In this document: piece after piece, positions 1-19,036 of the stretch
How the letters are laid out: each line of letters begins with the position of its first letter
Numbering within the stretch: position 1 is the stretch's first letter
DNA from: a virus
Length of the DNA stretch: 23,141 nt
Virus record (IMG/VR): IMGVR_UViG_3300046462_000630
Span: 1-23,141 of that record
Reading direction: 5' to 3' (one strand)
Program-made: the position numbers and the translations under genes
The notes under the pieces: generated by a model
The model's database searches: none
What the model was told of the DNA's origin: nothing
The model's input: the letters and a program-made list of their open reading frames with translations, nothing else

Positions 1-1
1 A

Positions 2-136
2 GCCTTTAAATACGCGGCTTACGGCCAATTACAGGGAGTTGAAGAAAAGGGACTTGGTCCCGCCAACAGGAATCAAATTATCAATAAAATCAATGACATA
101 AAAAACAAATATGCAAAAAATGGGGAGGTGGATTAG
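2..136 (+). CDS. 3' end of an unidentified CDS (partial)
   Basis: An open frame runs from the left window edge to a TAG at 134-136, giving the last 44 residues of a protein whose start lies outside the window. The tail is hydrophilic and lysine/asparagine rich (for example NQIINKINDIKNKY), with no recognisable domain. Base composition is AT-rich like the defence-type genes that follow, so it probably belongs to the same accessory block. The fragment is too short to assign a family, and chance openness of an AT-rich frame cannot be excluded. Confidence 0.4.
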   Translation, partial: AFKYAAYGQLQGVEEKGLGPANRNQIINKINDIKNKYAKNGEVD

Positions 137-187
137 AAAATCTACAAAATCATCTTCCGTTAAATTTCTAAGCTTGTTTCATCGGCT

Positions 188-955
188 ATGATTGCTGTTC
201 AATCCACTAATCGAGCCGCTATGGACAATGCCCTGGGACTTCTTATAACTATATTGGGCGCGGGCGGCGGAGGCGCGCTAGTAGCATATTTGCTCTGTAA
301 ATCCTTGGGTGAAAAATGGATAGACAGCAAATTTTCTAAAGCACTGGAAAAGCAAAAATATCATCAGTCACTTGAATTGCAAAAACTAAAAATCCAAATT
401 GATGCTCTATTGAGTGGGCGGCTAAAGATGCAGGAACATGAGTTCCAAATCCTGCCAGAGTTGTGGAATGCACTGTACGAAATGCAAATGAGCCTAGGTC
501 ATCTTGTATCGGACTTCAGGATCGAGCCGACTTTGCGGGGACTAACGCACGAAGAATTGGAAAATTTTTTAGAGCAATCATCGCTAAATGCTTATCACAA
601 GCAACAAATGCGCGAGAGTTCCGATAAGGTCGCGTGCTTTAGGTCTATCGTCTACCAACTCGATTTTCTGAGAACAAATACCTTGGTTAGAGATTTCGAC
701 CAAGTGCTTGCCAAAGGAGGCATATTTTTGCCTCCAGACGTGAAAGAGAAATGCAAGAAAATATCGTTCGAAGCAAATAGCATTATGTTTCGCCGCCACC
801 TGGGGTACGATCCAAACGGAACGAATCTTGAGGATAAATGCAAATCAAATTTCGATAGTAAGATAGTCCCGCTCTTTGATGAGGTTGAGCGAGACATTCA
901 GTCGCGCTTGGTTTCTCACGGACAGGCGGTAGATTCAATACTTTCAACGTCGTAA
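188..955 (+). CDS. Membrane-anchored coiled-coil protein, unknown function
   Basis: 255 residues. A hydrophobic, glycine-rich segment at about residues 15-36 looks like one N-terminal transmembrane helix or signal anchor. A charged helical stretch follows (about 40-80, rich in K, E, Q and L) that probably forms a coiled coil, then a soluble, mostly helical domain with no catalytic motif I can identify. From memory, proteins of this layout (TM anchor, KxLEKxK helix, then an EFxxLPE-type motif; here HEFQILPELW near residues 84-93) are common hypotheticals in defence islands and prophage cargo. The ATG at 188 has no clear ribosome binding site, and an in-frame ATG at 221 would still keep the TM segment. 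It stands alone, 76 bases before the AbiJ-like gene, and could be a membrane effector or a sensor. Function unknown. Confidence 0.75.
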   Translation: MIAVQSTNRAAMDNALGLLITILGAGGGGALVAYLLCKSLGEKWIDSKFSKALEKQKYHQSLELQKLKIQIDALLSGRLKMQEHEFQILPELWNALYEMQMSLGHLVSDFRIEPTLRGLTHEELENFLEQSSLNAYHKQQMRESSDKVACFRSIVYQLDFLRTNTLVRDFDQVLAKGGIFLPPDVKEKCKKISFEANSIMFRRHLGYDPNGTNLEDKCKSNFDSKIVPLFDEVERDIQSRLVSHGQAVDSILSTS

Positions 956-1031
956 TATTTGGCAGGTAGCGGAGCGTGCAAATTAATGTCTATCTCCTGG
1001 CCTTCAAAGGAACAAGCAATATTCAATACGA

Positions 1032-2456
1032 ATGACCAAAAAAACAACCCCTCTTGAGACGTGGCGATCGGCGATTGCCGATGCCTTGTGGGCGAACACG
1101 AGCGCCACTAGCCTTCCGACCGTCTGCGTTGGACTGGGCTTGGCAAACGGTGACGTCGACGAAGCGCTTGCAAGCAAGCGTAAATACGTGAGAACTCGCA
1201 TACAGTTGTATAAAGGGCCGGAACTCATTAAATTGGCTGAAGCAGTTCTCGAGGAATTTGATGCCCCTGGATTACAAGACCTGCTATCGGAAGTCAACTT
1301 CCACTCTACCCACCGTATCAGCGACTTCACTCGTCGCGAAGTTTTAAAAAAACTTATCCCACTCGACCCGTTGTTTGGAGAGCTAGGTTTAAATCAGCTC
1401 AACAACAATTTGAATGTCATTGCTCCACCCTGGGATCAGCCAAGCGAATTCGGAGGCGTCTACCGCGGCGTCCCGAAGACCTTCACCGATGATGTCGACA
1501 AGCACTACGTCAACGAGACAGATTGGGATAACTTTCAGCTTTTGGAAAAATGCGGTGCATTAACGTGTACACAAGACCGTTTTTTTGCGCTCCTCCAACG
1601 GCTGCTCGATCCAATTATTCGAAAAGGAAAAGAACAGCAATCTTTAGCCGAAGAATTATCCACCGTGCTACGTCCTGACGGATTTGGTGTAGTTGTAACG
1701 GAACAAGTGTCAGGCCAATCTGTGTACGGTGTACAACGATTGGGAAATGGCGTTGCAGGTGCTGTAAAGAATTTAATCTTCGCTTCCGTTGGTAAAAAAC
1801 CTGAATTGATATTGCGCGATGCTGTCAGCAATGATGTGGAAATCATCAAGCACGGCGACAAATGTCTCATCTATGACCAGCCGCTACCTTCCACTGGCTT
1901 GCCATGGGTAACTATAGCCAAGTGGTGGATGGAGCGTGAGGGCTTCGATGATTTAAAAGTCGCACGGAAGGGTCTAGGCGAAAGATTGCTTCGATCCGTT
2001 GAACTAACGCGCTCACCCGGTGAATATGCGATTTTCCGTACTTATTATGAGGTCTTCGGACCAAGGTTGGGCGAAAAGCTGCCTGCATTAATTCCACAGG
2101 TCTACTTGCACTATGACCCGATGACAGCCGCGCAACGTGGAAACGCAAAGATCCTGGAGCGCCAGCGCATGGATTTTCTGTTGCTGCTGGATAACCACGT
2201 AAGGGTTGTTGTTGAAGTTGATGGAAGACAACACTACGCAGAGGGAGATCAAGCATCGCCAAGACTATACGCAGCCATGGCCGCTGAGGATCGCCGACTT
2301 CGTTTAAAGGGATATGAACTTTATCGATTTGGCGGCGCAGAATTTTCCGATTGCCAGATAGAATCTGACCACAGGTACACCATAGGACCCATCTCGCATG
2401 ATGTGGTGACAGAATTCTTTGAACGACTGTTCCTCAATCATAATCTGAAACTATGA
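1032..2456 (+). CDS. AbiJ-NTD3-type protein with C-terminal PD-(D/E)XK nuclease domain
   Basis: 474 residues. The middle region (about 95-235) resembles the AbiJ N-terminal domain 3 family: FTRREVLKKLI near 99-109, a DRFFALLQRLLDPIIR helix near 182-197 and LRPDGF near 213-218. AbiJ-type proteins are linked to abortive infection in Lactococcus and to defence islands. The C-terminus (about 370-435) has the layout of a Vsr/DUF559-like PD-(D/E)XK nuclease: RMDFLLLLD with D381, VVVEVDGRQHY with E395 and D397, and RRLRLKGYELYRF with K426. An AbiJ-type sensor fused to a nuclease effector is consistent with a single-gene anti-phage protein, though function is inferred. The first 90 residues are helical and unassigned. 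Start is the ATG at 1032; a purine-rich AAGGAA lies some 20 bases upstream, so the ribosome binding site is weak. Its AT-rich codon use contrasts with the phage core genes. Confidence 0.8.
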   Translation: MTKKTTPLETWRSAIADALWANTSATSLPTVCVGLGLANGDVDEALASKRKYVRTRIQLYKGPELIKLAEAVLEEFDAPGLQDLLSEVNFHSTHRISDFTRREVLKKLIPLDPLFGELGLNQLNNNLNVIAPPWDQPSEFGGVYRGVPKTFTDDVDKHYVNETDWDNFQLLEKCGALTCTQDRFFALLQRLLDPIIRKGKEQQSLAEELSTVLRPDGFGVVVTEQVSGQSVYGVQRLGNGVAGAVKNLIFASVGKKPELILRDAVSNDVEIIKHGDKCLIYDQPLPSTGLPWVTIAKWWMEREGFDDLKVARKGLGERLLRSVELTRSPGEYAIFRTYYEVFGPRLGEKLPALIPQVYLHYDPMTAAQRGNAKILERQRMDFLLLLDNHVRVVVEVDGRQHYAEGDQASPRLYAAMAAEDRRLRLKGYELYRFGGAEFSDCQIESDHRYTIGPISHDVVTEFFERLFLNHNLKL

Positions 2457-2670
2457 ATAACCAAGTCACTAACCTGCTTACAACCGCACCTATCCGCAAG
2501 TTCACGGCGTGGAATGAGAGCGAAACCCCGCATTAGCTCTACCTCTCTCTATTTGCTGTAGCAAATTCGAAGCACGCGACTTTCGTCGAATGCGGTTCCG
2601 GTTTTTCCCCTTAGAAATCTGTCCTTGGCTCAACGAGCTATCCATTGCACGCGGGATTACTGTCACTGCA

Positions 2671-2698
2671 TTGCCATTCTAGCTATATTCTGTAGAAT
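2671..2698 (+). promoter_or_regulatory. Candidate sigma70 promoter for the ATPase-PIN-ligase operon
   Basis: TTGCCA at 2671-2676 and TAGAAT at 2693-2698 are separated by 16 bases, close to the -35/-10 consensus. It is the best promoter-like pair before the small ORF at 2728 and the operon starting at 2909. Transcription would begin near 2705 and cover both. Called by eye. Confidence 0.4.
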
Positions 2699-2727
2699 TG
2701 ATTCAGCGCAATTGTTAGGGGGCAAGC

Positions 2728-2823
2728 ATGGCATTACGAAAAATAATCAAGGTGAGCGATAAGACAACTACCATCGAAGCGGCGCTGCCAAGCGGTATTG
2801 CTGGATACCCATTATGCAAGTGA
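2728..2823 (+). CDS. Small ORF (31 codons) leading the ATPase operon, possible gene remnant
   Basis: ATG at 2728 to TGA at 2821-2823, beginning MALRKIIKVSDKTTT. AGGGGGC lies five bases upstream of the ATG, stronger than most ribosome binding sites in this block. The opening residues remind me, from memory only, of small prophage proteins that begin MALRKII and run to about 95 residues; if so this copy is cut off after some 20 residues. Alternatively it is a genuine leader peptide or a small partner of the ATPase operon, whose GTG start is 85 bases downstream. No function can be assigned. Confidence 0.35.
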   Translation: MALRKIIKVSDKTTTIEAALPSGIAGYPLCK

Positions 2824-2908
2824 GATACGATTGAGGGAAATTGTGAGAACACGTCGCTATAGCTAGCACTTCAATCTCAAGTTGTAATAATAATTTAGGA
2901 TAAATATA

Positions 2909-4300
2909 GTGCTGACCAAATTGCGTTTCCAGAATTTCAAAGCTTGGAAAGATACGGACCAAGTCCGACTAGCGCCCCTTACAATTATTTTTGGAGCCAA
3001 TAGCGCCGGAAAAAGTAGTTTAGGGCATCTCCTTCTCGCCCTCAAACAAACTGCGTTGTCTTCGGATCGCCGACGAGCATTACATTTGGGAGACGAAAAT
3101 TCTCTGGTCGATCTTGGGACCTACGACGAGCTCATTCACGGTCATAATTTAGGAAAAAATATGACGTTTGGCTTGGAGTGGAAGCTTCCGCGTCCGTTAG
3201 AGGTCAAGGATCCCCTCCAGTTAGAGCGAAGCCGCGGCGACATACTACAACTTGTAGTTCAACTGGCTACTGCAAAATCGGGGCAGCCCGAAGTGACATC
3301 TTTGGAGTACCGTCTAAGTGACGATGGACATAAAGATATCATCAAAAGTGATTACAAGAGAAATAAAGCTGGGCAATTTGAGCTTACCGCAACGCCATAC
3401 AAGTTGATACGCACAGCTGGGCGGGTATGGCCTTTAGAAGAACCTGAGAAATTCTATAGGGTGTCAGAACAGTCTCGAGCAAGATTCCAAAACGCTGCGT
3501 TTCTATCGGATTTTGCATTGTCAACCGAAGAGATGCTGAGCAAGGTTTACTACCTTGGCCCACTTCGTGAATATCCAAAACGGAGCTATCAGTGGTCAGG
3601 GGATACACCTGAGGATGTAGGGCAAAGAGGCGAGTTCGCAATTGCAGCTATCTTGGCCGCGCAGAGTCAGGATAGAAAATTAAATCGAGGTCCCAGAAAG
3701 AAGCAGCAGCCATTCGCTGAATTTATCGCAAATTGGTTGCAAGATCTTGGCATCATACATAGCTTCCGTGTAAAGCCAGTATCTGAAGGCCGCCGAGACT
3801 ATGAGGTTTTAGTAAAAACCCACGCGACCAGTGCCGAGGTCAAAATAACTGATGTGGGATTTGGCGTTTCCCAAGTGCTCCCGGCAATTGTTCAGGCATT
3901 TTATTGTGAGCCTGATTCGGTCATATGGATGGAGCAGCCTGAAATTCATTTGCATCCACAAGTTCAGGCAGAACTCGCAGACGTTTTTATTTCTGCCATC
4001 AAGGCGCGAGAAAACGGGGTAACGAGAAATGTCCAACTCATCATCGAAAGCCACTCCGAACACTTCTTGAATAGAATTCAAAGGAGAATTGCAGACGAAA
4101 CGCTTTCTCCTAAAGATGTTGCTATCTATTTCGCGAGGAATACTAGTCCTGGGGGTGCTACGCTCGAACCTCTGAAGGTTAACGAGTACGGGGATATTGA
4201 AAATTGGCCTGAGAATTTTTTCGGTGACGAAATGGCTGACCTTACTGCCCGCACAGTTGCCGCGATGAAAAGAAAAAAAGAAAATAAGCAAAAAATATAA
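2909..4300 (+). CDS. AAA/ABC-type ATPase, DUF3696 family (putative defence ATPase)
   Basis: 463 residues. Walker A is FGANSAGKSS at about 28-37, right after an N-terminal beta strand of the SMC/RecF type. The Walker B region is VIWMEQPEIHLHP (about 337-350), where the usual IDEPE reads MEQPE; I recall EQPE as normal for DUF3696 relatives. The switch histidine follows in IIESHSEHFLNRIQRRI, and the DUF3696-like C-terminus has the NEYGDIENWPENFFGDE pattern. Relatives are the ATPase subunits of two-component systems such as Septu and PARIS, where the ATPase senses phage and controls a nuclease partner. The start is GTG 2909: an in-frame TAA at 2891 rules out earlier starts, and TAGGA lies about ten bases upstream. 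The stop overlaps the next ATG by one base (TAATG), so translation is coupled to the PIN gene. I infer that it regulates that nuclease. Confidence 0.88.
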   Translation: MLTKLRFQNFKAWKDTDQVRLAPLTIIFGANSAGKSSLGHLLLALKQTALSSDRRRALHLGDENSLVDLGTYDELIHGHNLGKNMTFGLEWKLPRPLEVKDPLQLERSRGDILQLVVQLATAKSGQPEVTSLEYRLSDDGHKDIIKSDYKRNKAGQFELTATPYKLIRTAGRVWPLEEPEKFYRVSEQSRARFQNAAFLSDFALSTEEMLSKVYYLGPLREYPKRSYQWSGDTPEDVGQRGEFAIAAILAAQSQDRKLNRGPRKKQQPFAEFIANWLQDLGIIHSFRVKPVSEGRRDYEVLVKTHATSAEVKITDVGFGVSQVLPAIVQAFYCEPDSVIWMEQPEIHLHPQVQAELADVFISAIKARENGVTRNVQLIIESHSEHFLNRIQRRIADETLSPKDVAIYFARNTSPGGATLEPLKVNEYGDIENWPENFFGDEMADLTARTVAAMKRKKENKQKI

Positions 4301-4812
4301 TGCAGACTATCAAAATTGTTGATACCAACGTAATTTTGGTCGCAAATGGTCAGCACGAAAACGTAGAACCGGACTGCGTTTCCACTTGCGCATTGGCGCT
4401 TCAAGACCTGATGAAAAATGGAAAACTTGCTCTCGACGGTGGCTATTTAATACTTAACGAATATCAGAATAAAACACAGCCGAAGAAAGGTAATCGTCCA
4501 GGTGACGCTTTTGTGAAATGGGCATTACAAAACTCTGGGAATCCAACTCGTTGTGACCAAGTAGAGCTGCAAGCACATGCGACTCGCAAATTTGAGAGTT
4601 TTCCAGATCACGTCGACCTGCAGAATTTTGATGAACCAGATAGGAAATTTGTTGCCGTTTCAATGGCGCATCCGGATCACCCAGAAATTTTGCAAGCTGC
4701 AGATTCAAAGTGGCTAGACTGGGCTCCTGCTCTTAAAGAAAATCAAGTATTAGTTAATTTTTTATGTATTCGTGACGTGAAAAAATTTCATAAGAGAAAA
4801 TTTGGAAAATGA
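4300..4812 (+). CDS. PIN-domain ribonuclease
   Basis: 170 residues, the length of a single PIN domain plus a basic tail. The acidic quartet is readable: D8 in KIVDTNVIL, E54 in LILNEYQNK, D114 in FDEPDRKFVAVS and D135 in LQAADSKW. The second half has the classic PIN order: DxxFVAVA-like helix, strand, then the Asp-containing turn. PIN enzymes are metal-dependent RNases (VapC toxins, for example, cut tRNA or rRNA) that leave 3'-OH and 5'-phosphate ends. There is no antitoxin gene of the VapB kind beside it. Instead the gene starts on the last base of the ATPase stop codon and ends by an ATGA overlap with the RNA ligase gene. It is probably the effector of an ATPase-controlled system. The substrate is unknown, and the tail KKFHKRKFGK could bind RNA. 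Confidence 0.82.
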   Translation: MQTIKIVDTNVILVANGQHENVEPDCVSTCALALQDLMKNGKLALDGGYLILNEYQNKTQPKKGNRPGDAFVKWALQNSGNPTRCDQVELQAHATRKFESFPDHVDLQNFDEPDRKFVAVSMAHPDHPEILQAADSKWLDWAPALKENQVLVNFLCIRDVKKFHKRKFGK

Positions 4813-5501
4813 ACAATTTTTTCCGCTTTCCTCATACTCCGCACATTGCTTGGCTAGCTGCCCAAGCGCCGCGGGACGACAAAGTCCTAAGTTGTGCAGA
4901 AGCAGAATTAATTCTTAAAAATGAAGTAAAAATAGAAGAAAAAATCGATGGCGCAAATCTGGGTATATCAATATCTCGTTCAGGCGAATTAGTTGCTCAA
5001 AATCGAGGTCAATATTTGACCCATCCCTACAGTGGCCAATTCAGAAAACTGACAACCTGGCTTGAAGTGCATCAAGATAAATTCTTCGATTGCCTGGGAG
5101 AAGACTTGATGCTGTTTGGCGAATGGAGTCTCGCTCGTCATTCACTTGATTATGAAAATTTACCCGATTGGTTTCTTCTTTTTGACGTCTATGATCGTTA
5201 TGAAAAGAAATTCTGGTCTACTAGCCGTCGAGATGCATTGGCTGCGGCATTGAATCTTGCAACAGTTCCTATCCTGTTTAGCGGCCATATAACACTACTA
5301 GAACTCAAAGCATTTTTGATGAAGTCAAAAAGTAAATTTCGGCGGGGATCGCTTGAAGGGTTAATTATTAGGCAGGAAACGTTAGAATGGCTTACCGTAC
5401 GAACCAAGCTAGTGCGACCGGATTTTATTCAAGGTATCGAAGATCATTGGACCCGCCGTCCGATTGAACAAAATAGAGTATCTAGCAAACGGCATCGCTA
5501 A
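4809..5501 (+). CDS. ATP-dependent RNA ligase (Rnl2-like nucleotidyltransferase)
   Basis: 230 residues with the ordered motifs of covalent nucleotidyltransferases. Motif I is EEKIDGAN, with K45 as the probable AMP-accepting lysine. R66 lies in AQNRGQYL, motif III is LFGEWSLARHSLDY (about 102-115), motif IIIa WFLLFDVYDRY (121-131), motif IV SLEGLIIRQE (181-190) and motif V VRTKLVRPDF (197-206). This matches the RNA_ligase family of T4 Rnl2-like enzymes, which join 3'-OH to 5'-phosphate ends using ATP. It lacks most of the C-terminal domain of T4 Rnl2 (334 residues), as many short family members do. The ATG at 4809 overlaps the PIN stop codon (ATGA), so the two are translationally coupled. Coupling a ligase to an RNase suggests repair or antidote activity. 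An anti-defence tRNA-repair role is an alternative. Confidence 0.88.
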   Translation: MNNFFRFPHTPHIAWLAAQAPRDDKVLSCAEAELILKNEVKIEEKIDGANLGISISRSGELVAQNRGQYLTHPYSGQFRKLTTWLEVHQDKFFDCLGEDLMLFGEWSLARHSLDYENLPDWFLLFDVYDRYEKKFWSTSRRDALAAALNLATVPILFSGHITLLELKAFLMKSKSKFRRGSLEGLIIRQETLEWLTVRTKLVRPDFIQGIEDHWTRRPIEQNRVSSKRHR

Positions 5502-5555
5502 AACTGAGAACATACCCCAGGATTGAGGTTCAATTTACCTGTGCGGAATAGGCTA

Positions 5556-6221
5556 ATGGAAAAACAAGGCGACGAGATCAAAGCCTATTGCAACGTTTGT
5601 GCAGGTGAACGCGACCATGAGGTTCTGTTTGCTGTAATGCGCGAATGGCATGAGGACGATGGCTCCTACGATGAATTCGAGCAGTGTTTGGTAGCCGCAT
5701 GCTGCGGATGCAAGCATCGCATTTTTCTGAAACGTTGGCAGAACAGCCCCCAAGTCGAGGTCACTCAATATCCACCGAAGACGATTCGGAAAACACCTGA
5801 TTGGCTCTTTAATCTTTTCTTGAGCAATACAGCTAATTCGACCAAGAACGAACTTATCACTGAAATTTACGCTGCATTGGGAGCGAACTGCACAAGGCTT
5901 GCTGTCTTGGGTATCCGCGCGTTGCTAGAACATATCATGATCGAGAAAATTGGTGATCAGGGAAGTTTCGAAAACAATTTGGCTGCGTTTCAGGCAGATG
6001 GGTTTATTTCGTCAGTGCAGCAATCTGCAATGTCGCCTGTTATTCAGGCGGGACATGCCAGCATGCACCGGGCTTATAACCCACCCTTGGACGATGTTAT
6101 GCACTGCCTTGATGTCACAGAAAATCTCATATTAGCAATATACATTCATCCAAATCGCTCGGCACAAATGTACATTCCCGAACGCGCCAAACTGGCAAAA
6201 AAGGTAAAAGCCCGTTCCTAA
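5556..6221 (+). CDS. DUF4145 domain protein with N-terminal zinc-ribbon-like cysteines
   Basis: 221 residues from the ATG at 5556, which has GGAATAGG just upstream; a TTG at 5523 would add 11 residues and is less likely. The N-terminus carries CNVC (C12, C15) and CCGC (C49, C50, C52), a probable zinc ribbon, followed by a beta-rich stretch. The C-terminal half (about 95-205) is the helical DUF4145 domain, with ALGANCTRLAVLGIRALLEHI and a PPLDDVMHCLDVTENLI region. DUF4145 is distantly related to HEPN-type helical domains and appears in restriction enzymes and defence genes, but I see no clear RxxxxH active site in the expected place. It lies 54 bases after the ligase gene on the same strand, so it may be a fourth member of that operon or an independent cargo gene. 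Confidence 0.72.
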   Translation: MEKQGDEIKAYCNVCAGERDHEVLFAVMREWHEDDGSYDEFEQCLVAACCGCKHRIFLKRWQNSPQVEVTQYPPKTIRKTPDWLFNLFLSNTANSTKNELITEIYAALGANCTRLAVLGIRALLEHIMIEKIGDQGSFENNLAAFQADGFISSVQQSAMSPVIQAGHASMHRAYNPPLDDVMHCLDVTENLILAIYIHPNRSAQMYIPERAKLAKKVKARS

Positions 6222-6243
6222 CCACTGGCTATTATGTTTTCGA

Positions 6244-6918
6244 TTAGAACAGAGTGCCATTAGGCTCGGCTTTCTTTTTTGTCGTCGACTTCGGCGCCGG
6301 TCGGGCGGTCATCAACGTAGCAGGATAGAGTTGCAGGTATGACCTAGCGCGCTCTGGGTCCCTGCACTCAAGCCAGTCCACGTACTCAGACGGCGGCACA
6401 ATCACTAGTGATCGCTTTTCGTCGTCAGGCTTATGGAACCGATTCATCAATGGATGATCGTCAGCATTGACCGTGATCTGCGTGAAGGAGCGAGTTGTCG
6501 TGCCGTCGGGTTCGCTCCAGGAACGCCACAGGCCGGCGACTGCAAACGATGTTTGATCAGCCATTCCTATGCTCCAGCGGACGGCAGCGCCTGTCTCGTA
6601 GCATGGCTCGTAAAACGACTCCATGAGAACCAGACAAAGCTGGCCTTCGCGCCATGGCTTAGAATAATTTCGCTTTTCGCCAATTGTCTCAGCGCGGGCA
6701 TTCATCGTTGAAAATTTTTTGACACCAGGCGGGATATGCCGCTTCGGCACCATCGCATAGCTGGCCAGGATGATTTCGGGGCCGTCCTCTCCAATTCGAA
6801 TGATTGGCGCGGAGTAATCGTTATATATTTCATGCGGCCAGTCCGTTTCCGGCGGGCGCATGGCCGAGGCTATCGACGGTAGCCTGTCTCGCGGCGTCGC
6901 ATTGTAATTTGTACACAT
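6244..6918 (-). CDS. SRAP/YedK-HMCES family protein (SOS response-associated)
   Basis: 224 residues starting MCTNYN, so Cys2 becomes the N-terminal catalytic cysteine after Met removal, as the family requires. I use the ATG at 6918: a longer frame to 7008 would bury the cysteine and overlap the upstream gene. Other family landmarks are N73 in TMNARAET, E104 in ESFYEP (family GFYEW) and H162 in PLMNRFH (aligned with YedK His160). SRAP proteins form a thiazolidine crosslink with abasic sites in single-stranded DNA and shield them. The C-terminal tail is lysine rich. It is the last gene of a three-gene leftward operon whose promoter overlaps a LexA box (7709-7728), which fits a DNA-damage role. 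It runs convergent to the DUF4145 gene with a 22-base gap. Confidence 0.9.
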   Translation of the reverse strand: MCTNYNATPRDRLPSIASAMRPPETDWPHEIYNDYSAPIIRIGEDGPEIILASYAMVPKRHIPPGVKKFSTMNARAETIGEKRNYSKPWREGQLCLVLMESFYEPCYETGAAVRWSIGMADQTSFAVAGLWRSWSEPDGTTTRSFTQITVNADDHPLMNRFHKPDDEKRSLVIVPPSEYVDWLECRDPERARSYLQLYPATLMTARPAPKSTTKKKAEPNGTLF

Positions 6919-6947
6919 AATTCGGGCCTCGCTAGTGCGGTCCCGAT

Positions 6948-7289
6948 CTAGTCTACCCGTGCGGCGACTTTTTGTTGTGTCATCGGCTCCAATATCTCTA
7001 CCCGCCAACTCTGCACAAACGTCTGGTGCGATACTTCATCCTTCTGAAGGCCGACTATCAACATGTGGTCCTTGGCAATTCCAACGACGACGGCATCCTG
7101 AAGCGGTGGCATTGAATCAAATCCCCCATTTATGAGCCGTGCTACCTGGCTTGTACGCTCCGCCAGGTAGTCGCTTTGTTGACGCTGCAGGCGCAACTCT
7201 CCGCATAGACAATTCATTTTGCGCATAGCAAGGACTTTAGTGTCAATCGGGCGCCCCTCGTCCCAAAGACATTCCACTCTGACAAACAT
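6948..7289 (-). CDS. Hypothetical protein of the SOS operon
   Basis: 113 residues from the ATG at 7289, preceded by TTGGGGGCAGAT, a strong ribosome binding site. A TTG at 7364 would add 25 residues and has no such site. The protein starts MFVRVECLWDEG and has a short basic helical middle (LRLQRQQSDYLAERTSQVARLI), then a beta-rich end with VVVGIAKDHMLIVGLQK and SWRVEIL. The sequence suggests a small mixed alpha/beta protein; I recognise no family motif and no catalytic set. It lies 29 bases upstream of the SRAP gene and 88 bases downstream of another small gene, all leftward, so it should be co-expressed on DNA damage. Confidence 0.65.
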   Translation of the reverse strand: MFVRVECLWDEGRPIDTKVLAMRKMNCLCGELRLQRQQSDYLAERTSQVARLINGGFDSMPPLQDAVVVGIAKDHMLIVGLQKDEVSHQTFVQSWRVEILEPMTQQKVAARVD

Positions 7290-7377
7290 ATCTGCCCCCA
7301 ATATTTGATGTATAGAAATATGGAAAAATTGGCCCTGCAGCAGTTGACTACGCAGACCCGACAATGCGTCGAGAGAA

Positions 7378-7686
7378 TCAATGGACCCTGTGGAACGCTT
7401 CGTAGATCATTGAAAACGCGCAGGCAATTGCACTTGATTTACCAAAATCCACGGGATCGTCATTAAGTGGGTAATTGAACACGCCAGAGTGCTTAATTAA
7501 ATTGATATAAGCAGGCTGCAGATCATTTGAGCGGTTCAATTCGTCCAGGACTTCAGTTTCTATCGAATGAATTAGCCGCCAGGTGAGGGGCAATCCTGCA
7601 GTGCGATGGCGGACGACTATCGTATGGATAATTGGCTCTGCGCGTGCAATTACCGCGTCAAATTCGTTCATATCGGTGAGGCGCAT
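7378..7686 (-). CDS. Hypothetical protein, first gene of the LexA-controlled operon
   Basis: 102 residues from the second of two adjacent ATGs (7689 and 7686). TGGAGA lies just upstream, and the 7686 ATG gives six bases after GGAG, the better spacing. A longer open frame to 7785 runs through the promoter and LexA operator and is rejected. The product is a soluble, mostly helical protein, beginning MRLTDMNEFDAVIARAEPII and including HSIETEVLDELNRSN and SSAIACAFSMIYEAFHRVH. No family recognised. As the promoter-proximal gene of an SOS-type operon ending in SRAP it probably acts in DNA damage or prophage induction, but nothing in the sequence says how. Confidence 0.6.
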   Translation of the reverse strand: MRLTDMNEFDAVIARAEPIIHTIVVRHRTAGLPLTWRLIHSIETEVLDELNRSNDLQPAYINLIKHSGVFNYPLNDDPVDFGKSSAIACAFSMIYEAFHRVH

Positions 7687-7708
7687 CATATTCTCCAGAG
7701 TGCAAATA

Positions 7709-7728
7709 TACTGTATGCATGTACAGTA
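7709..7728. promoter_or_regulatory. LexA (SOS) operator
   Basis: TACTGTATGCATGTACAGTA is a perfect 20-base palindrome built on CTG-N10-CAG, the proteobacterial LexA box (E. coli consensus TACTGT-N8-ACAGTA). It lies about 20 bases upstream of the ATG at 7686 and overlaps a minus-strand -10-like TATACT (plus-strand positions 7725-7730). LexA binding would block the leftward operon until DNA damage. There is no rightward gene nearby for it to control. Confidence 0.85.
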
Positions 7729-7754
7729 TAAACGCTTATCGGATTTTTGCTGAA
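7725..7754 (-). promoter_or_regulatory. Candidate promoter of the SOS operon
   Basis: On the minus strand TATACT (7730-7725) is a good -10 hexamer embedded in the LexA box. The -35 is weak: TTCAGC at 7754-7749 with 18-base spacing. The overlap of operator and -10 is typical of LexA-repressed promoters. Exact hexamers are a by-eye call. Confidence 0.45.
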
Positions 7755-7881
7755 ATTCCGCGCAAAGTGCGTTATTTTGCGTCACGCTGACGCAGCCAAC
7801 TTCTCCGCGAACCCCGCCAGGCCTGGAAAGTTGGCGTTTTTGCGAACTGCGTTAAAAGCAGTGCCTTTAACGAAGCCGGCA

Positions 7882-7900
7882 GGCGTGGGGGGGACTGCGA
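7882..7900 (+). other. Candidate cos site
   Basis: GGCGTGGGGGGGACTGCGA resembles the 19-base cohesive ends of P2-group phages as I remember them (P2 GGCGAGGCGGGGAAAGCAC, 186 GGCGTGGCGGGGAAAGCAT), matching the 186 version at 14 of 19 places without gaps. It has the expected orientation and sits beyond the 3' end of the leftward portal gene, where P2 has cos. It is flanked by inverted repeats GCCGGCAG (7875-7882) and CTGCCGGC (7912-7919). The comparison relies on recall. Confidence 0.5.
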
Positions 7901-7906
7901 ATTAAA

Positions 7907-7927
7907 GGCCGCTGCCGGCCAGTTTTT
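7907..7927 (+). terminator. Terminator-like hairpin, rightward
   Basis: GGCCG-CTGC-CGGCC (7907-7920) is followed by AGTTTTT, the form of a short rho-independent terminator on the plus strand. No rightward gene precedes it in the preceding 1.6 kb, so it may instead be part of the cos-region structure. Confidence 0.35.
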
Positions 7928-7954
7928 CATGGCAAGGCAACAATGTCAGGACGA

Positions 7955-7977
7955 TAAAAAAGCCGCACAGGGCGGCT
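7955..7977 (-). terminator. Rho-independent terminator of the Q/P leftward transcript
   Basis: On the minus strand the sequence reads AGCCGC-CCTGT-GCGGCT followed by TTTTTT: a perfect 6-bp GC-rich stem, a 5-base loop and a U-run. It lies 52 bases after the stop of the Zn-finger gene, the last gene of the leftward terminase-portal unit. Confidence 0.82.
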
Positions 7978-8029
7978 CAGATCGATACAGGCGCTGCCGT
8001 TACAACATGGCAGCGGGTTGGGTATACCG

Positions 8030-8239
8030 TCAGCGTCCGGCGCGCCTGTGCGCCTCCTGCTCCTTCTCGTAATCATCCCGGCAATCCGTATTGCAGAACA
8101 GCGCGCCATGGGCGACACGTTCGTCACAGTAATGGCACCGGCCATCGGCTTCCAGCTTAGGCGTGCGGCGCGCATGCGCCATGGCTGCCTTGATGTCCTG
8201 GGCAATGCGCCAGTCGGCGCGGTCGGCTACGTCGCTCAT
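8030..8239 (-). CDS. Small zinc-finger protein downstream of the portal gene
   Basis: 69 residues. An N-terminal helix (DVADRADWRIAQDIKAAM) is followed by CHYC (C35, C38) and CNTDC (C49, C53) within a compact treble-clef-like finger, then a charged tail (DDYEKEQEAHRRAGR). Small zinc-finger proteins of this kind are known in prophages of Burkholderiales, and the finger also recalls DksA/TraR-like and FCS-type fingers, but no function is established to my knowledge. Its ATG overlaps the portal stop codon (ATGA), so it is translationally coupled to gpQ and expressed as a late gene. The terminator at 7955-7977 closes the unit. Confidence 0.75.
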   Translation of the reverse strand: MSDVADRADWRIAQDIKAAMAHARRTPKLEADGRCHYCDERVAHGALFCNTDCRDDYEKEQEAHRRAGR

Positions 8240-9291
8240 GCTGCTTTCCCTTCCATGTTCCCCAATGCGTATTCGCTAAATTTCACTACCTCTTCCCCCA
8301 TCCATTCATTGATCGTTAAGAACTGCGATTGCAGCGGCACCAGCTCGTTGCGGGCGAACACGCGCGCCGCCGGCTCGACCGCGCCGAAGCCGCCGGCATT
8401 GCTGGGCATGATCCCCATCAACTGCGGCGGCACGCGGTGCGCCGCCAGCAGGTCGTCCCTGGTCACGCCCTTGATGTTAAAAAATTCGTCCTTCGCGGCG
8501 ACCTCGGACACCGGCAGGATCTGAATGCCGTCTTTCTTGCCCCCTGGTGCGTACATGAAGACGTTGCGAAAATTGCCCGGCCCCTTGCTATCCCGTAGCG
8601 CCGTGCGCAGCTTGTCCACGTCCTTGATGTCCTGGGCGGCATCGGTCATGTAGAGAATGAAGCCGGCGTGAGAGCCGTTCTTGTAATACTTGCGTCGGAA
8701 CAGCGTGGCCGATTCGTTGAGCCAGGCCGACTGCAAGGCGGACAGGTATTGCGGCAGGCCGTACACCTCCTGGTTCACATCGGGATCCATCAAGTGAAAT
8801 ACCGTCCCCCTGGGGAAGGCGTGTTCTTGCTTCCATCCCTGCACAAAGAAATAGTTATCCAGCTCCTGTCCGCGCCGCGTGTACTTGGCGAGCGAATGGG
8901 TCAACTGCACCAGTCGACCCGTGCGGCTGCTGCGCTGTTCAGGGTAGGCGTTGCCAAAAGTCAGGAAATCCAGCGCCAGGCGTTTAAACGTATCCCGCGA
9001 CAGGTATTTGTTCGGCAGGAAGGTCGAGGTCAGAATATTGGTTTTGAAATAGATCGCGCTGCTATGGTGGACGCTGGCGTTAAACGATTTCGCCAGGCCC
9101 TGCCAGCTGACTGGCGGCTCGTACCAGCGGCCATTGAGCCAGCATTCCAGATTCTCCATGATGTCGGCCTGGTCCAGCACCGGCATCGGGTCGCCGAACG
9201 AGAACGCCTCCATGGACGGCGCCGGCGGCGCTACTTGGTCGGACGGAGCCATGGTCCCTTGTTGGGTCCGCTTAAAACGTTGTTTCTTCAT
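8236..9291 (-). CDS. Q: Portal protein gpQ
   Basis: 351 residues, the size of P2 gpQ (344). It shows the PBSX/P2 portal pattern: CWLNGRWYEPPVSWQGLAK near 51-69, NAYPEQRSSRTGRLVQL near 114-130, then the stem/crown region with GGKKDGIQILPVSE and the conserved HRVPPQLMGIMPSNAGGFG near 285-303. Twelve copies form the ring at one head vertex through which DNA is packaged by the terminase and to which the tail attaches. Its ATG overlaps the terminase stop codon (ATGA), and it is followed by the coupled Zn-finger gene. Confidence 0.96.
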   Translation of the reverse strand: MKKQRFKRTQQGTMAPSDQVAPPAPSMEAFSFGDPMPVLDQADIMENLECWLNGRWYEPPVSWQGLAKSFNASVHHSSAIYFKTNILTSTFLPNKYLSRDTFKRLALDFLTFGNAYPEQRSSRTGRLVQLTHSLAKYTRRGQELDNYFFVQGWKQEHAFPRGTVFHLMDPDVNQEVYGLPQYLSALQSAWLNESATLFRRKYYKNGSHAGFILYMTDAAQDIKDVDKLRTALRDSKGPGNFRNVFMYAPGGKKDGIQILPVSEVAAKDEFFNIKGVTRDDLLAAHRVPPQLMGIMPSNAGGFGAVEPAARVFARNELVPLQSQFLTINEWMGEEVVKFSEYALGNMEGKAA

Positions 9292-11123
9292 CCCGTAAAA
9301 ATCTCCATAAATGAGGTGGTGGCTTTCGATATGCCCTCAATCGGTTCGTGATCGAGCGCGTGCATGCAGGCCCAGGCCAGGTCGGCATGGCCGGTTTCGT
9401 CGGTGCGGCCAGCGTCATACGTGACCTGCCTGCCGCTGGCCGTAATGGTTTTGCGGATCGCCATGAATGCCTGGGCCAGGTCGGTGGCGCCGGCGTCGAA
9501 TTCCAGGCGCCCCTTGCTGATCACGTCCTTGGCCTTCAAGACCATGCGAACCTTGACCTCGGCGGAATAGTTGATGGCGGTCGCGTTCGGAAAGAACTGC
9601 TTCACAATCGGAAAGACACCAATACCCATGCCGGTCGTGTCGATGCCGATATAGTCGACCTGGTAGCGCAGGGTCATTTGCCGGATGGCTTCGGCCTGAG
9701 CCGCGAAATCCATGCCCCGCCATTGGTGTCGCTCCAGGACACGGAACTTGCCGCCGGCGACCAGCGGCGGCGCCAGCACCACACAGCCGGCGCTGTCGCC
9801 TGTCAGCGAGGGGTCGTAGCCGATCCAGACCGAGCGGTAGCCGAAGGGGCGCGCCGCAAACGGTTTGACGTCGTCCCAAGCTTCCCAGGAATCGACCATG
9901 CAGCGCTGCAGCTCGGCCAGCGGGAATATCGATGTGGTGTCATCGATAAAATTGCACATCAGGAGGTTTTCGAACTGGTCGGGGCTGTATTCGAAATTGC
10001 GCAGCTCATCGATGTCGAACAGATTGCAGCCGCCGCGCTCGGCATCCAGGATGGTCACGATCTGGCGCCAGATCTTGTCCTGTCCCGTAAAACCGCTCAT
10101 CAGCTTCGCATGGCTGATATCAATCTTGACCTGGTCGGTTTTGGGACGGCGCTTGTTGAACAACTCGCCAGTCCAGAATGGATACGCCTGGTGTGTGGTC
10201 GATGATGGCGTCGAAAAATAGGTCTTGCGCCATTGCTTGTGCAGCGCCATACCGGAGGCGACTTTGTTCAATTCCTGGAAATTGTGGGTCCAGAAGAATT
10301 CGTCAAAGTAGAAGTTGCCGTGATAGCCCTGGGCTGTTCTCGCATTGGTCCCCAGGAAATACAGGTGCGCGCCGTTCGGCAGCACAATCGGGTCGCCCGA
10401 CAATTCCACGCCGGCTGCTTCCTTAGCGAACTGGACGATGTACTGCTTGAAGACATGGGCCTGCGCCTTCGATGCCGACAGAAAAATCTGATTGCGACCC
10501 GTCGCCAGGGCGTCGGCCAGCGCTTCGCGGGCAAAGTACCAGGTCGCGCCGATCTGGCGCGATTTCAGAATGACCCGCGTGCGCTCATGGCCGTTGCGAT
10601 ACCAGACCTTTTGATAGTCGAACAGCGAATCGCGGAAGGCATCGAGTAACTGGCTTTGCTGTTCTTCGCTGAAATCGTTGCGGGTCGGCTTCTTCTTCGG
10701 GCCGGCATTGCGCTTATCCAGGTTCGGATTGAGATCCGCCTCATTGCCGCCGCCGTCATAGCGGCGCTTGCGCGACATCTGCACCAGGGAGCGCGTCAAT
10801 AAATCGATTTCCTTGAAATCGCTGCCGGTCTTGACCTCCTTGCCGACCAGCTGCACCATGCGCGCCTCAATCGTGCCCTCTACACGGTCGATGGCCGTCG
10901 ACAAGTGCCATTTGTCGCGCTCCTTCCAGCTGGCGACCGTGCTGCGCTTGATCTTTAGATGCTTGGCAATCGAGGAAATGCGCCAGCCCTGCCAGTACAG
11001 GCTGCGGGCGGCGTCGCGCATGGCGGCCGGATCGTCGACAACGGCTGTGAACTTTGCGGGTATGCCTGGCGCGCGCGTGGAGCTGCGTTTGGCTGATTTG
11101 GATTGGACGGGCTTGATTAACAT
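9288..11123 (-). CDS. P: Terminase large (ATPase) subunit gpP
   Basis: 611 residues from the ATG at 11123, giving MLIKPVQ; a frame extension to 11273 would run into the divergent promoter region and the opposing gene O. An N-terminal helix-turn-helix (about 40-68, YWQGWRISSIAKHLKIKRST) is typical of gpP. The motor has a Walker A-like KSRQIGAT (187-194) and a Walker B FYFDEFFW (271-278). The C-terminal RNase H-like nuclease carries acidic motifs in VWIGYDPSLTGDSAG, YIGIDTTGMGIG and GHADLAWACMHAL. It cuts cos concatemers or circles and pumps DNA through gpQ with the small subunit gpM. It is divergent from gene O, with which it shares a 140-base promoter region. Confidence 0.96.
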   Translation of the reverse strand: MLIKPVQSKSAKRSSTRAPGIPAKFTAVVDDPAAMRDAARSLYWQGWRISSIAKHLKIKRSTVASWKERDKWHLSTAIDRVEGTIEARMVQLVGKEVKTGSDFKEIDLLTRSLVQMSRKRRYDGGGNEADLNPNLDKRNAGPKKKPTRNDFSEEQQSQLLDAFRDSLFDYQKVWYRNGHERTRVILKSRQIGATWYFAREALADALATGRNQIFLSASKAQAHVFKQYIVQFAKEAAGVELSGDPIVLPNGAHLYFLGTNARTAQGYHGNFYFDEFFWTHNFQELNKVASGMALHKQWRKTYFSTPSSTTHQAYPFWTGELFNKRRPKTDQVKIDISHAKLMSGFTGQDKIWRQIVTILDAERGGCNLFDIDELRNFEYSPDQFENLLMCNFIDDTTSIFPLAELQRCMVDSWEAWDDVKPFAARPFGYRSVWIGYDPSLTGDSAGCVVLAPPLVAGGKFRVLERHQWRGMDFAAQAEAIRQMTLRYQVDYIGIDTTGMGIGVFPIVKQFFPNATAINYSAEVKVRMVLKAKDVISKGRLEFDAGATDLAQAFMAIRKTITASGRQVTYDAGRTDETGHADLAWACMHALDHEPIEGISKATTSFMEIFTG

Positions 11124-11199
11124 GCCGCCAGCGTAGAGGGCAACGCGGGTAAAAGCCCTTGTCAGGAAGTCGGTAAGACAGTTATCAACCCGCTGCCGA

Positions 11200-11218
11200 T
11201 TGTTGAGCGGCGCAACAA
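11200..11218. promoter_or_regulatory. Palindrome in the P/O divergent promoter region, candidate late-activator site
   Basis: TTGTTG-AGCGGCG-CAACAA is a perfect 6-bp-arm inverted repeat placed between the divergent starts of P (11123) and O (11264). P2 late promoters are switched on by Ogr at TGT-N12-ACA dyads; here the spacing is TGT-N11-ACA, so the match is close but not exact. A related TTG-N13-CAA dyad lies before gene V (19095-19113). Confidence 0.35.
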
Positions 11219-11263
11219 ACCGGACCATGGCGGTATTCGAACTTTGTGAGTATCGCCGCCACC

Positions 11264-12124
11264 ATGTCCACACCGACCGCCAAGCCCGTAGCAGGTAAGC
11301 AATCCAAATTCTTCCGCGTCGCCGTCGAAGGCGCCACCACCGATGGCCGCGTGATTGACCGCAGCTTTATCGAGCAGATGGCCGCTACCTTCAATCGGCA
11401 ACTCTATGGCGCCCGTGTCTGGCTGGAACACCTGCGCAGCACCTTGCCGGACGGTCCATTTAAAGCCTATGGCGATGTGCTGGCGGTGAAGGCCGAAGAG
11501 GTGGTACTGGGCGGCGCAAAAAAACTGGCACTGTTCGCGCAGATCTCCCCTACCCCTGAACTGGTCGCCATGAACCAGGCGCGCCAGAAGATCTATACCA
11601 GCATCGAGATCAATCCGAAGTTTGCCGACACCGGCGAGGCTTACCTGGTCGGCCTGGCTGTCACCGACAGCCCCGCCAGTCTGGGCACCGAAATGTTGTC
11701 GTTCGCCGCGCAGCACCCCGACAGCAATCCGCTTGCCAGCCGCAAGCAAGATCCCGACAACCTGTTTACGGCGGCGATTGAGGTCGCGCTGGAATTCGAG
11801 GATATCCCCCCACCTGAACCCGAAGGAATCAAATTGTCCGACACCCTCAAAAACCTGTTGAAACGCTTTTCCACAAAGACCGCCGGCGACGATGCGCGTT
11901 TCGGTGAACTGGTCGACGCCGTCGAGACCCTGGCAACGCATGCGAATCTGAGCGCGGACGAATTCGCGGAAGAAAAGAAGCGCGTCGACACCCTGGAAGC
12001 CGCGTTGCAAAAGACGAATGACGAATTTGCAGCATTCAAGCAACAGGTCGAGACCACCGACGCGAACCCGACGCACCGCCCCGCTGCGACCGGCGGCGCC
12101 GGCGACCTGGAAACCGAATTCTAA
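11264..12124 (+). CDS. O: Capsid scaffolding protein/protease gpO
   Basis: 286 residues from the ATG at 11264, giving MSTPTAKPVAGKQSKFFRV; a GTG at 11246 would add six residues. P2 gpO is 284 residues. The N-terminal half is the serine protease, with the likely triad D27 (TTDGRV), H56 (WLEHLR) and the serine in SPASLGTE (136-143). The C-terminal half is helical and charged, with a coiled-coil stretch (about 215-265) that acts as internal scaffold for gpN. It self-cleaves and trims gpN, gpO and gpQ during maturation. It opens the rightward head operon, 58 bases before gpN. Confidence 0.94.
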   Translation: MSTPTAKPVAGKQSKFFRVAVEGATTDGRVIDRSFIEQMAATFNRQLYGARVWLEHLRSTLPDGPFKAYGDVLAVKAEEVVLGGAKKLALFAQISPTPELVAMNQARQKIYTSIEINPKFADTGEAYLVGLAVTDSPASLGTEMLSFAAQHPDSNPLASRKQDPDNLFTAAIEVALEFEDIPPPEPEGIKLSDTLKNLLKRFSTKTAGDDARFGELVDAVETLATHANLSADEFAEEKKRVDTLEAALQKTNDEFAAFKQQVETTDANPTHRPAATGGAGDLETEF

Positions 12125-12179
12125 GCGCCGCTCCCGTTCACAACGATCACAGACCTCACATAGTCAGGAGTAACCCCGC

Positions 12180-13184
12180 ATGAAAAAACATACCCGCTTA
12201 GCCTTCGATAAATACGCCCAGCGCCTGGCGCAATTGAACGACACCGCCAGCGTCGCCCAAACCTTCGGCGTCGACCCGAGCATCCAGCAGAAGCTGGAAA
12301 CCAAGATCCAGGAGTCCAGCGAATTCCTGGGCAAGATCAACGTCATTGGCGTGACCGAACAGGAAGGTGACAAGCTGGGCCTGGGCATTTCCGGCCCGAT
12401 TGCCGGTCGCACCAATACCGACAAGGGCGACCGCAAGACCCGGGATTTGGCGTCCCTGGACGACCAGCGCTACCGCTGCGAAAAAACCAATTTCGACACC
12501 CACATCAAGTATCAGACCCTGGACGCCTGGGCCAAATTCCCCGATTTCCAGCAACGCATCGCCAATGTGATCTTGCAGCGCCAGGCGCTGGACCGCATGG
12601 TGATCGGCTTCCATGGCACCAGCGTTGCCGCCGATACCGACATTGTGAAATATCCCATGCTGGAAGATGTCAATATCGGTTGGCTGGAACACTACCGCCG
12701 GCAGGCGCCGCAGCGCGTGCTGCATGAAGGTAAGACGCCTGGCAAAGTGGTCATCGGCGCCGGCGGCGACTATGCCAACCTGGACGCGACCGTGTTCGAC
12801 GCCCTCAACCTGCTCGATCCCTGGTATCAGAAAGATGCCGGCCTGGTCGCCATCGTAGGCCGGGCACTGTTGCACGATAAATATTTCCCGCTGGTGAACA
12901 CCAAGCAGGCGCCGACCGAGACCCTGGCCGCCGACATCGTCATCAGCCAGAAACGGATCGGCGGCCTGCAGGCGGCGACGGTTCCGTATTTCCCCGACAA
13001 CACCATCCTGATTACCCGTTTCGACAATCTGTCGATCTACTGGCAGGAATCGGCGCGCCGGCGCCGGGTGGTTGACGAAGCCAAGCGCGACCGTATCGAA
13101 AACTACGAATCGTCCAATGATGCCTATGTGATCGAAGACTACGGCCTGGGCGCCATGATCGAAAACATCGAACTGGTGGCCTGA
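12180..13184 (+). CDS. N: Major capsid protein gpN
   Basis: 334 residues (P2 gpN 357). The N-terminus, MKKHTRLAFDKYAQRLAQLN, is the segment removed by gpO in P2. The HK97-fold body follows with the family signature LGLGISGPIAGRTNT near 64-78, the ALDRMVIGFHGTSVA stretch near 139-153, and a C-terminal FDNLSIYWQESARRR and ENYESSNDAYVIEDY. It forms the icosahedral shell with gpO as scaffold. AGGAG lies about 11 bases upstream of the ATG. Gene M follows after one base. Confidence 0.96.
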   Translation: MKKHTRLAFDKYAQRLAQLNDTASVAQTFGVDPSIQQKLETKIQESSEFLGKINVIGVTEQEGDKLGLGISGPIAGRTNTDKGDRKTRDLASLDDQRYRCEKTNFDTHIKYQTLDAWAKFPDFQQRIANVILQRQALDRMVIGFHGTSVAADTDIVKYPMLEDVNIGWLEHYRRQAPQRVLHEGKTPGKVVIGAGGDYANLDATVFDALNLLDPWYQKDAGLVAIVGRALLHDKYFPLVNTKQAPTETLAADIVISQKRIGGLQAATVPYFPDNTILITRFDNLSIYWQESARRRRVVDEAKRDRIENYESSNDAYVIEDYGLGAMIENIELVA

Positions 13185-13185
13185 C

Positions 13186-13899: not shown

Positions 13900-13995
13900 A
13901 CGAGCACCCCTGGCGCACGGCGGCGCGGGTCGATGAACAAATCATTGCGCTGTCGTTCTGACGCCCGCCCACCGCCGATTTTTAAGAAATGACTT

Positions 13996-18948: not shown

Positions 18949-19008
18949 GATCCCCCCCTTGATATACAAGCCCAACGATATGCATTTGGTTCGAGATGTG
19001 GCAATTTC

Positions 19009-19036
19009 ATAGTAGAGCGTCAATCAAATTCCTCAA
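19009..19036 (-). promoter_or_regulatory. Candidate promoter for the OLD-family gene
   Basis: On the minus strand TTGAGG (19036-19031) and TACTAT (19014-19009) are spaced by 16 bases, each matching four of six consensus bases, some 60 bases before the ATG at 18948. A promoter of its own is expected for a lysogenic cargo gene set against the late operon. Called by eye. Confidence 0.3.

Follow-up and report, generated by a model that had tools for sequence, protein, structure and literature searches.

A HEC-03-like ATPase, a PIN-fold nuclease and a minimal RNA ligase in one operon: a candidate reversible RNA-cutting module

The locus described here lies in the IMG/VR virus record IMGVR_UViG_3300046462_000630. 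The stretch analysed, hereafter the window, is 23,141 bases long and carries P2-like genes. Three co-directional genes stand in a row (Table 1) and encode an ATPase, a PIN-fold nuclease and an RNA ligase. The ATPase and PIN genes share one base at 4300 (TAATG), and the PIN and ligase genes share four at 4809–4812 (ATGA), as read from the sequence. An initial annotation described three overlapping genes with intact catalytic residues, a DUF3696-type ATPase, an AbiJ-type neighbour and a prophage setting, all of which is borne out by the open reading frames (ORFs), the domain matches and the P2-like genes.

The ATPase matches Pfam families AAA_15 (4.4e-24) and DUF3696 (8.9e-10). In PADLOC it matches HEC-03B (4.5e-137) over residues 1–460 of 463, with NsnB (1.8e-61) and PDC-M55A (1.3e-56) next. 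What we take to be the Walker A motif is intact (GANSAGKSS), and there is also a stretch that we take to be Walker-B-like (alignment A3). Mainly through its C-terminal part, the protein matches PHROG 21420 (3.9e-73), a phage family of 654 positions without an assigned function.

The second protein has no Pfam match at E<=1. PADLOC matches it to HEC-03A (1e-18, 66 bits), more weakly than it does the PINs of two related loci, L118 (1.5e-74) and L119 (8.2e-51). The structural model has a predicted local distance difference test score (pLDDT) of 95.5, and its eleven best Foldseek matches have probabilities of 0.84–0.99, with a best E-value of 0.012 and none below 0.01. It resembles structures of SMG6, VapC and FitB, and less so that of HARP (7og5, in twelfth place, probability 0.66). 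The acidic residues D8, D46, E54, D111 and D114 are present in 78/78 aligned sequences, and D135 in 75/78 (alignment A4). The predicted fold with its acidic cluster places the protein in the PIN nuclease superfamily. PIN enzymes are metal-dependent, and are expected to leave 5'-phosphate and 3'-hydroxyl ends. The same ends are described for AriB, a two-metal RNase of defence (PMC12409363). A search of 50,697 phage records gave no match to the window PIN.

The ligase matches PF09414 (1.8e-30) and no PADLOC family. Residues K45, D47, R66, G67, E105, D126, E183, R198 and K200 are invariant in 61/61 sequences (alignment A5); the catalytic roles of these positions, as of the acidic positions in the PIN, are presumed. 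Judged by its nucleotidyltransferase motifs, the protein is a member of the Rnl2-like superfamily PF09414. Its model resembles archaeal Rnl3-type ligases, Naegleria Rnl, T4 Rnl2 and the trypanosome editing ligase. It ends 30 residues past K200, and solved full-length relatives have 319–381 residues. Rnl-type ligases are described as requiring a 5'-phosphate and a 3'-hydroxyl (PMC7824862), and a Pfam or PHROGs scan of 26 window ORFs found no kinase or phosphatase for end healing.

Table 1. Genes and other features at the locus, with the three-gene operon first.
Feature	Position	Strand	Basis and remarks
ATPase, DUF3696/AAA_15, HEC-03B-like, GTG start, 463 aa	2909–4300	+	ORF list, Pfam, PADLOC; presumed sensor and gate
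PIN-fold nuclease, HEC-03A-like, 170 aa	4300–4812	+	PADLOC, predicted fold, acidic residues
Minimal Rnl-type RNA ligase, nucleotidyltransferase domain only, 230 aa	4809–5501	+	PF09414, fold, catalytic residues; presumed nucleophile K45
Intergenic stretch 5' of the ATPase gene	2457–2908	+	Presumed promoter region
AbiJ_NTD3 gene (context, not component)	1032–2456	+	PF18860 1.2e-37
DUF4145 gene (context), TTG start, 21 bases past the ligase	5523–6221	+	PF13643 2.1e-14
P2-like head block (context)	8236–14487	mixed	Triad lies beyond the portal end

This arrangement recurs with a conserved gene order. One genome from each of 84,980 species was scanned with an alignment of seven PINs. Of the 174 relatives obtained, the best 80 were kept; these are therefore biased towards the window's type. 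All three genes are present in 60 of the 80 loci; 16 have the PIN with the ligase only, four have the PIN with the ATPase only, and none has the PIN alone. Each of the 80 PINs has an ATPase, a ligase or both, as though it required restraint or an antidote. The ligase comes directly after the PIN gene in 76 of the 80, starting between -8 and +43 bases from the PIN stop codon (at -4 in 40/76), and the PIN starts at -4 from the ATPase stop in 51/64; start codons for these counts were chosen by script. One of the 16 PIN and ligase loci (L030) begins at a contig edge, which leaves 15 with the sequence to show that no ATPase is present. Six phyla besides Pseudomonadota, Chloroflexota being one of them, appear among the rows of the PIN tree, and a Rhodococcus plasmid adds Actinomycetota. 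Many loci are contigs of metagenome-assembled genomes. One of them, titled Chloroflexota (L081), is probably mis-binned, being nearly identical to a locus from the family of Aquabacterium commune. Nine plasmid records contain a ligase of at least 41% identity, all with a PIN close by, and three other plasmid records with the PIN, all from Acinetobacter, have no ligase match. In an Aeromonas caviae plasmid (NZ_AP022111.1, around 67773–70366) there is only a partial ligase match, 1.6 kb after the PIN, and this ligase is probably interrupted.

The association was also examined in 299 genomes of the Aquabacterium commune family, including the centre genome, which was chosen because it has the pair. 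There are 11 close ligases (E about 1e-98 or better) and 11 PIN matches, nine of them shared and adjacent (Fisher p 6e-14, or 1.4e-12 without the centre genome). The remaining two close ligases adjoin a very divergent PIN, missed by the search, plus an ATPase, so that all 11 close ligases are paired with a PIN. Two genomes (G205, G225) have a PIN without a close ligase, both with an ATPase. A further 17 genomes have distant ligase matches only (E 1e-11 to 1e-40), and the nine of these that were read (L109–L117) have no adjacent PIN. Chance adjacency of PIN and ligase was rejected on the 76/80 loci and the Fisher p.

A less biased sample was obtained by HEC-03A searches at E 1e-8 in three phyla, in which divergent PINs would be missed. 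HEC-03A-like loci were found in 11/398 Pseudomonadota (8 with ligase), 9/297 Acidobacteriota (6) and 6/230 Verrucomicrobiota (5); the order of G320 gave 1/61, a repeat of L119. An ATPase is present in 26/26, and a ligase in 16/23 once centre genomes are excluded; these loci are about 3–3.5 kb long, and 'no ligase' means none within about 0.9–1.5 kb after the PIN. In two Acidobacteriota loci counted among those with a ligase, L158 (816–1592, -) and L159 (1954–2628, +), what follows the HEC-03A-like PIN is a PF09414 ligase that is very divergent and has a KLDG motif; L158 lies near the HEC-03A model (3.4e-47). The ligase slot may thus have been filled twice.

It is the PIN and the ligase that form the tighter unit, tighter than either forms with the ATPase, and this unit can exist without the ATPase. 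Over 65 triads, which omit loci with a short or missing ATPase, pairwise distances correlate at 0.83 for PIN and ligase, 0.60 for PIN and ATPase and 0.61 for ligase and ATPase. With divergent PINs included, the PIN–ligase value is 0.50 over 92 pairs, and none of 1000 permutations exceeded 0.23. On the PIN tree, the ATPase-less pairs make up a single group of 16 rows, with a Shimodaira–Hasegawa-like approximate likelihood ratio test (SH-aLRT) support of 99, although the trees are quick ones with long branches. They represent one Burkholderiales lineage, in which PIN and ligase are kept under purifying selection: in four pairs with a synonymous rate (dS) of at least 0.25, the ratio of non-synonymous to synonymous rates (dN/dS) is 0.03–0.08 for the PIN and 0.015–0.05 for the ligase. 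One pair at a dS of about 0.1 gives 0.25 and 0.12 respectively; dN/dS at low dS scatters from 0 to 0.73, and was not used. In 4/4 ATPase-less genomes tested, no DUF3696-type ATPase was found anywhere at E 1e-20. The eight ligase-less rows require at least five changes on the PIN tree, and the ligase has thus been lost or gained repeatedly; tblastn found no decayed ligase in 8/8 ligase-less loci. Five loci (L099, L100, L101, L106 and L108) have very divergent PINs and a more distant DUF3696-type ATPase with closely similar ligases, and the PIN partners appear to have been exchanged while the plan was kept. In a Verrucomicrobia locus (L098, 1444–2142, -), one protein has an N-terminus that by eye is like that of the HNH_2 neighbours, and a C-terminus that is a piece of ligase without motif I; it looks like a decayed chimera.

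The closest catalogued system is HEC-03, reportedly from a 2024 preprint by Payne et al. The window ATPase matches HEC-03B and the PIN adjoining it HEC-03A. The window differs in having a third gene, a ligase outside any PADLOC family; HEC-03 is taken here as the two PADLOC families HEC-03A and HEC-03B. The name stands for Hma-embedded candidate (PADLOC-DB 2.0.0). Such embedding is not seen at the window, where the three flanking proteins scanned have no PADLOC match, with AbiJ upstream and P2-like phage genes downstream. Some HECs are stated to be active (PMC12988326, PMC12111858), and the relevant text of PMC13356809 simply lists HEC-03. A search of titles and abstracts found no paper on the ATPase–PIN–ligase triad, including none that joins DUF3696 with an RNA ligase; printed accounts may exist. 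The ATPase–PIN part is therefore not new, being already a candidate as HEC-03. What PADLOC lacks is the ligase. What is new is the PIN–ligase unit and its use with and without the ATPase.

This alters the picture given by the initial annotation. The proposal of a new defence system survives in part: the triad is recurrent, its setting is often defence-type and its ligase has no PADLOC model, but the ATPase–PIN pair was already catalogued, and the statement that the genes are not part of any named system overlooked HEC-03. A match to a named system had been listed as an argument against novelty, and it applies to two of the three genes. Two further grounds for doubt, that the pairs would nearly always lack the ligase and that the ligase would occur with unrelated neighbours, run contrary to the counts (76/80 and 16/23 loci with ligase; 11/11 close ligases beside a PIN). 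The suggested three-gene count gave all three in 60/80. The emphasis shifts to the PIN and ligase, which are also found without the ATPase.

The closest published idea is the partnership of HARP (TIGR03875, 'RNA_lig_partner') with the ligase Rnl3 (TIGR01209), in which a PIN-superfamily RNase is likewise partnered with an ATP-dependent RNA ligase. Seshadri and Gopalan report the Rnl3 ligase in 89% of HARP-positive genomes; according to the same source the genes are mostly non-tandem, circularisation is proposed, and a toxin–antitoxin idea is raised and judged unlikely, at least in one archaeon (PMC12153264). The window genes, in contrast, are co-directional, overlapping and mostly accompanied by an ATPase, and the window ligase scores 27.5 bits against TIGR01209, where the cut-off is 136.9. 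The window PIN gives no HARP signal with NCBIfam or Pfam, and hhalign of alignment A4 against 21 HARPs gives a probability of 0.3%; that the PIN is a HARP was therefore rejected at the profile level. Since it is no HARP, the pairing of PIN and ligase seems to be recurrent, with different families.

PARIS resembles the triad in combining an ABC-type ATPase (AriA) with a metal-dependent RNase (AriB) whose products carry 3'-OH and 5'-PO4; it differs in that AriB is a Toprim tRNase and not a PIN, and in that it is described as two proteins, with no ligase in that description (PMC12409363). Pnkp1–Rnl–Hen1 and T4 Pnkp/Rnl1 contain an Rnl-type ligase that reverses ribotoxin damage (PMC4411300). These have end-processing enzymes, whereas the window ligase partners a nuclease whose ends should need none.

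RtcB is not known to be an operon partner of the toxin MazF, and is a ligase unrelated to the Rnl type. It is reported to undo the RNA cuts of MazF (PMC5408214), and acts on other ends than Rnl-type ligases do (PMC7824862).

The genomic setting differs between the two forms. One large ORF, not always the largest, was scanned beside each of ten triad loci drawn from the first twelve full-length triad loci listed: at E 1e-10, four gave strong PADLOC matches (methyltransferase/type IIG-like in L017, L019 and L024, PsyrT-like in L023), two weak ones (L013, L055) and four none. By phmmer with two query proteins, a type IIG-like methyltransferase lies within 1.5 kb upstream in 9/64 ATPase-bearing loci, eight of them within about 50 bases, where 55 of the 64 have at least 1 kb of upstream sequence; a regular expression for the methyltransferase C-terminus found 4/64. 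None was found by phmmer in the 16 ATPase-less loci. In Acinetobacter, the relative L006 follows helicase and N-6 DNA methylase genes; its ATPase falls into two ORFs, perhaps a broken gene. HNH_2 genes occur after the ligase in L055 (7223–7984) and in the ligase's place in L006 (6526–7281). Among ATPase-less pairs, 13 of 15 loci have flanking genes that are ExeA/GspB-like by motif, that is, of general-secretion type, and the eight neighbours scanned in four such loci comprise cyanophycin-synthase-like and GspA-like proteins, a cation antiporter, M20 peptidases and a histidine kinase. No relative turned up in viral contigs when each window protein was used by itself as the query. With alignments as queries, viral contigs yielded two triads, L173 and L174, which belong to another branch, a ligase at the edge of a contig (L175) and a solitary ligase (L176), as well as distant ligase relatives without a PIN within reach (L179–L216).

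We propose that the genes form a reversible RNA-cutting module, most likely of anti-phage or toxin–antitoxin type, in which the ligase would reseal the PIN's own cuts and the ATPase would act as a gate; we regard this as about evenly poised between right and wrong. The activity, substrate, direction of action and defence role that we infer would run as follows. By analogy with PARIS and other ATPase–nuclease pairs, the ATPase would sense infection and hold or release the PIN. The PIN would cut an essential RNA such as tRNA or rRNA, leaving, to judge from its fold, a 5'-phosphate and a 3'-hydroxyl. The ligase, as an Rnl-type partner, would join such ends without end healing and so reseal the PIN's own cuts, which would protect against leaky activity and let survivors recover. 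No kinase or phosphatase should be needed, because the ends expected from a PIN fit an Rnl-type ligase, and this is the main reason for proposing resealing. The proposal also draws on the near-constant PIN–ligase order, the co-variation of the two proteins, the lineage that keeps them without an ATPase, and the defence-type genes beside several triads.

Several observations weigh against this proposal. The best structural match of the PIN has a weak E-value (0.012). The ligase has no second (C-terminal) domain such as is found in solved full-length Rnl2, Rnl3 and Rnl5 relatives, and T4 Rnl2 seals 5'-phosphate ends poorly when truncated. It is also dispensable, being absent from 4/80 loci and from 7/26 HEC-03A-like loci, among the latter L118 and L119, the two that come closest to the HEC-03A model among the Pseudomonadota sampled. 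The PIN–ligase correlation falls to 0.50 once divergent PINs are included, and in the ligase tree the window falls near L100 and L101, two loci with PINs of the divergent kind. ATPase-less pairs lie in a housekeeping setting, which does not resemble defence. An 80-kb viral contig (L176) has a related ligase (3998–4663, +, 44% identity), and the 4 kb to each side of it contain neither PIN nor ATPase; the ligase tree does not place it firmly, and the phage may use the ligase against PIN cuts, as a counter-defence, or the enzyme may be an ordinary phage repair ligase. Finally, the PIN system DS-5 of DefensePredictor was judged probably not to be a toxin–antitoxin pair (PMC13092281), and the partner of a PIN is thus not necessarily an antidote.

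The general-secretion-type genes beside 13/15 ATPase-less pairs, the housekeeping neighbours in the four loci scanned and the low dN/dS would also suit a role in RNA processing, in which PIN and ligase cut and join to mature, circularise or rearrange a specific RNA, with the ATPase-gated triads as a defence variant. The circularisation proposed for HARP–Rnl3 provides a precedent (PMC12153264). We nevertheless think this unlikely, since there is no known or shared RNA beside the window triad, triads are found on plasmids and a prophage, and HARP and the window PIN are not detectably related by hhalign. The ligase might alternatively be a general repair enzyme that mends host RNA which phage enzymes or foreign ribotoxins have cleaved, with the PIN trimming or regulating and its own cuts not being the substrate. 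Such ligases are described as phage RNA repair enzymes (PMC7824862), and the PIN-less viral contigs with distant relatives would be in keeping with this; but the PIN is a near-constant partner of this ligase clade, and the end-healing enzymes are missing from the 26 ORFs scanned, which makes general repair distinctly improbable.

Two other readings have still less to recommend them. It is very improbable that the locus is ordinary HEC-03-type ATPase–nuclease defence with the ligase as a passenger without a role: the ligase matches no PADLOC family and ATPase–PIN loci without it do exist (L118, L119, L128; L162–L164; L171), but it is kept in 76/80 and 16/23 loci, with tight overlaps and invariant catalytic residues, and stays with the PIN where there is no ATPase. 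We give least credence to an offensive ligase, which would adenylylate or mis-join PIN-made ends and so block phage repair enzymes. The single nucleotidyltransferase domain, 230 residues against 319–381 in solved full-length ligases, would fit such a role, and the Rnl3 of Palaeococcus is reported to adenylate strongly and ligate weakly (PMC12153264). However, the motif residues examined are invariant in 61/61, and a phage poison hardly accounts for ATPase-less pairs in a housekeeping neighbourhood.

The resealing proposal can be extended, more tentatively, to a self-reversing RNA immune or toxin–antitoxin module. In this extension, which we hold to be possible though rather doubtful, the operon ligase would be an enzymatic antidote that reseals the exact bond cut, the triads its defence form, the Burkholderiales ATPase-less pairs its stand-alone form, and phages with the ligase alone its counter-defence. 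If the ligase does reseal the PIN's cuts, RNA-cleavage defence need not be a one-way path to dormancy or death, as one operon would hold both wound and cure, and the locus would offer a tractable model for a recurrent and unexplained pairing of PIN nuclease and RNA ligase, of which HARP–Rnl3 is the published case. For annotation, HEC-03 calls should check for the third gene.

No Rfam match was found in positions 1–9000 of the window. By BLAST, the stretch upstream of the ATPase gene is not similar to its counterparts in 57 other triads, and the flanks of the window triad have no BLAST match to those of other triads; an RNA encoded beside the triad was rejected on these grounds. Among the other triads, flanks match in 48/1653 upstream and 19/1770 downstream pairs, and in the loci opened the upstream stretch concerned is largely a neighbouring coding gene.

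The DUF4145 gene downstream of the ligase matches a phage 'DNA binding protein' family. In the P2-like head block the portal and terminase large subunit genes are on the minus strand, and the scaffold, major head, terminase small subunit and head–tail adaptor genes are on the plus strand; tail genes (GpR, GpV-type, gp25-type and P2 I-type) follow. P2 keeps old and tin near the portal-side end, and such P2-type ends are defence hotspots. A gene of 587 aa (17260–19023, -), with the P2 tail gene R on one side and the V-type gene on the other, matches phrog_4747 (1.1e-82), a family that also weakly matches the triad ATPase (3.4e-11). This gene is probably OLD-like, and probably a second cargo insert in the same prophage.

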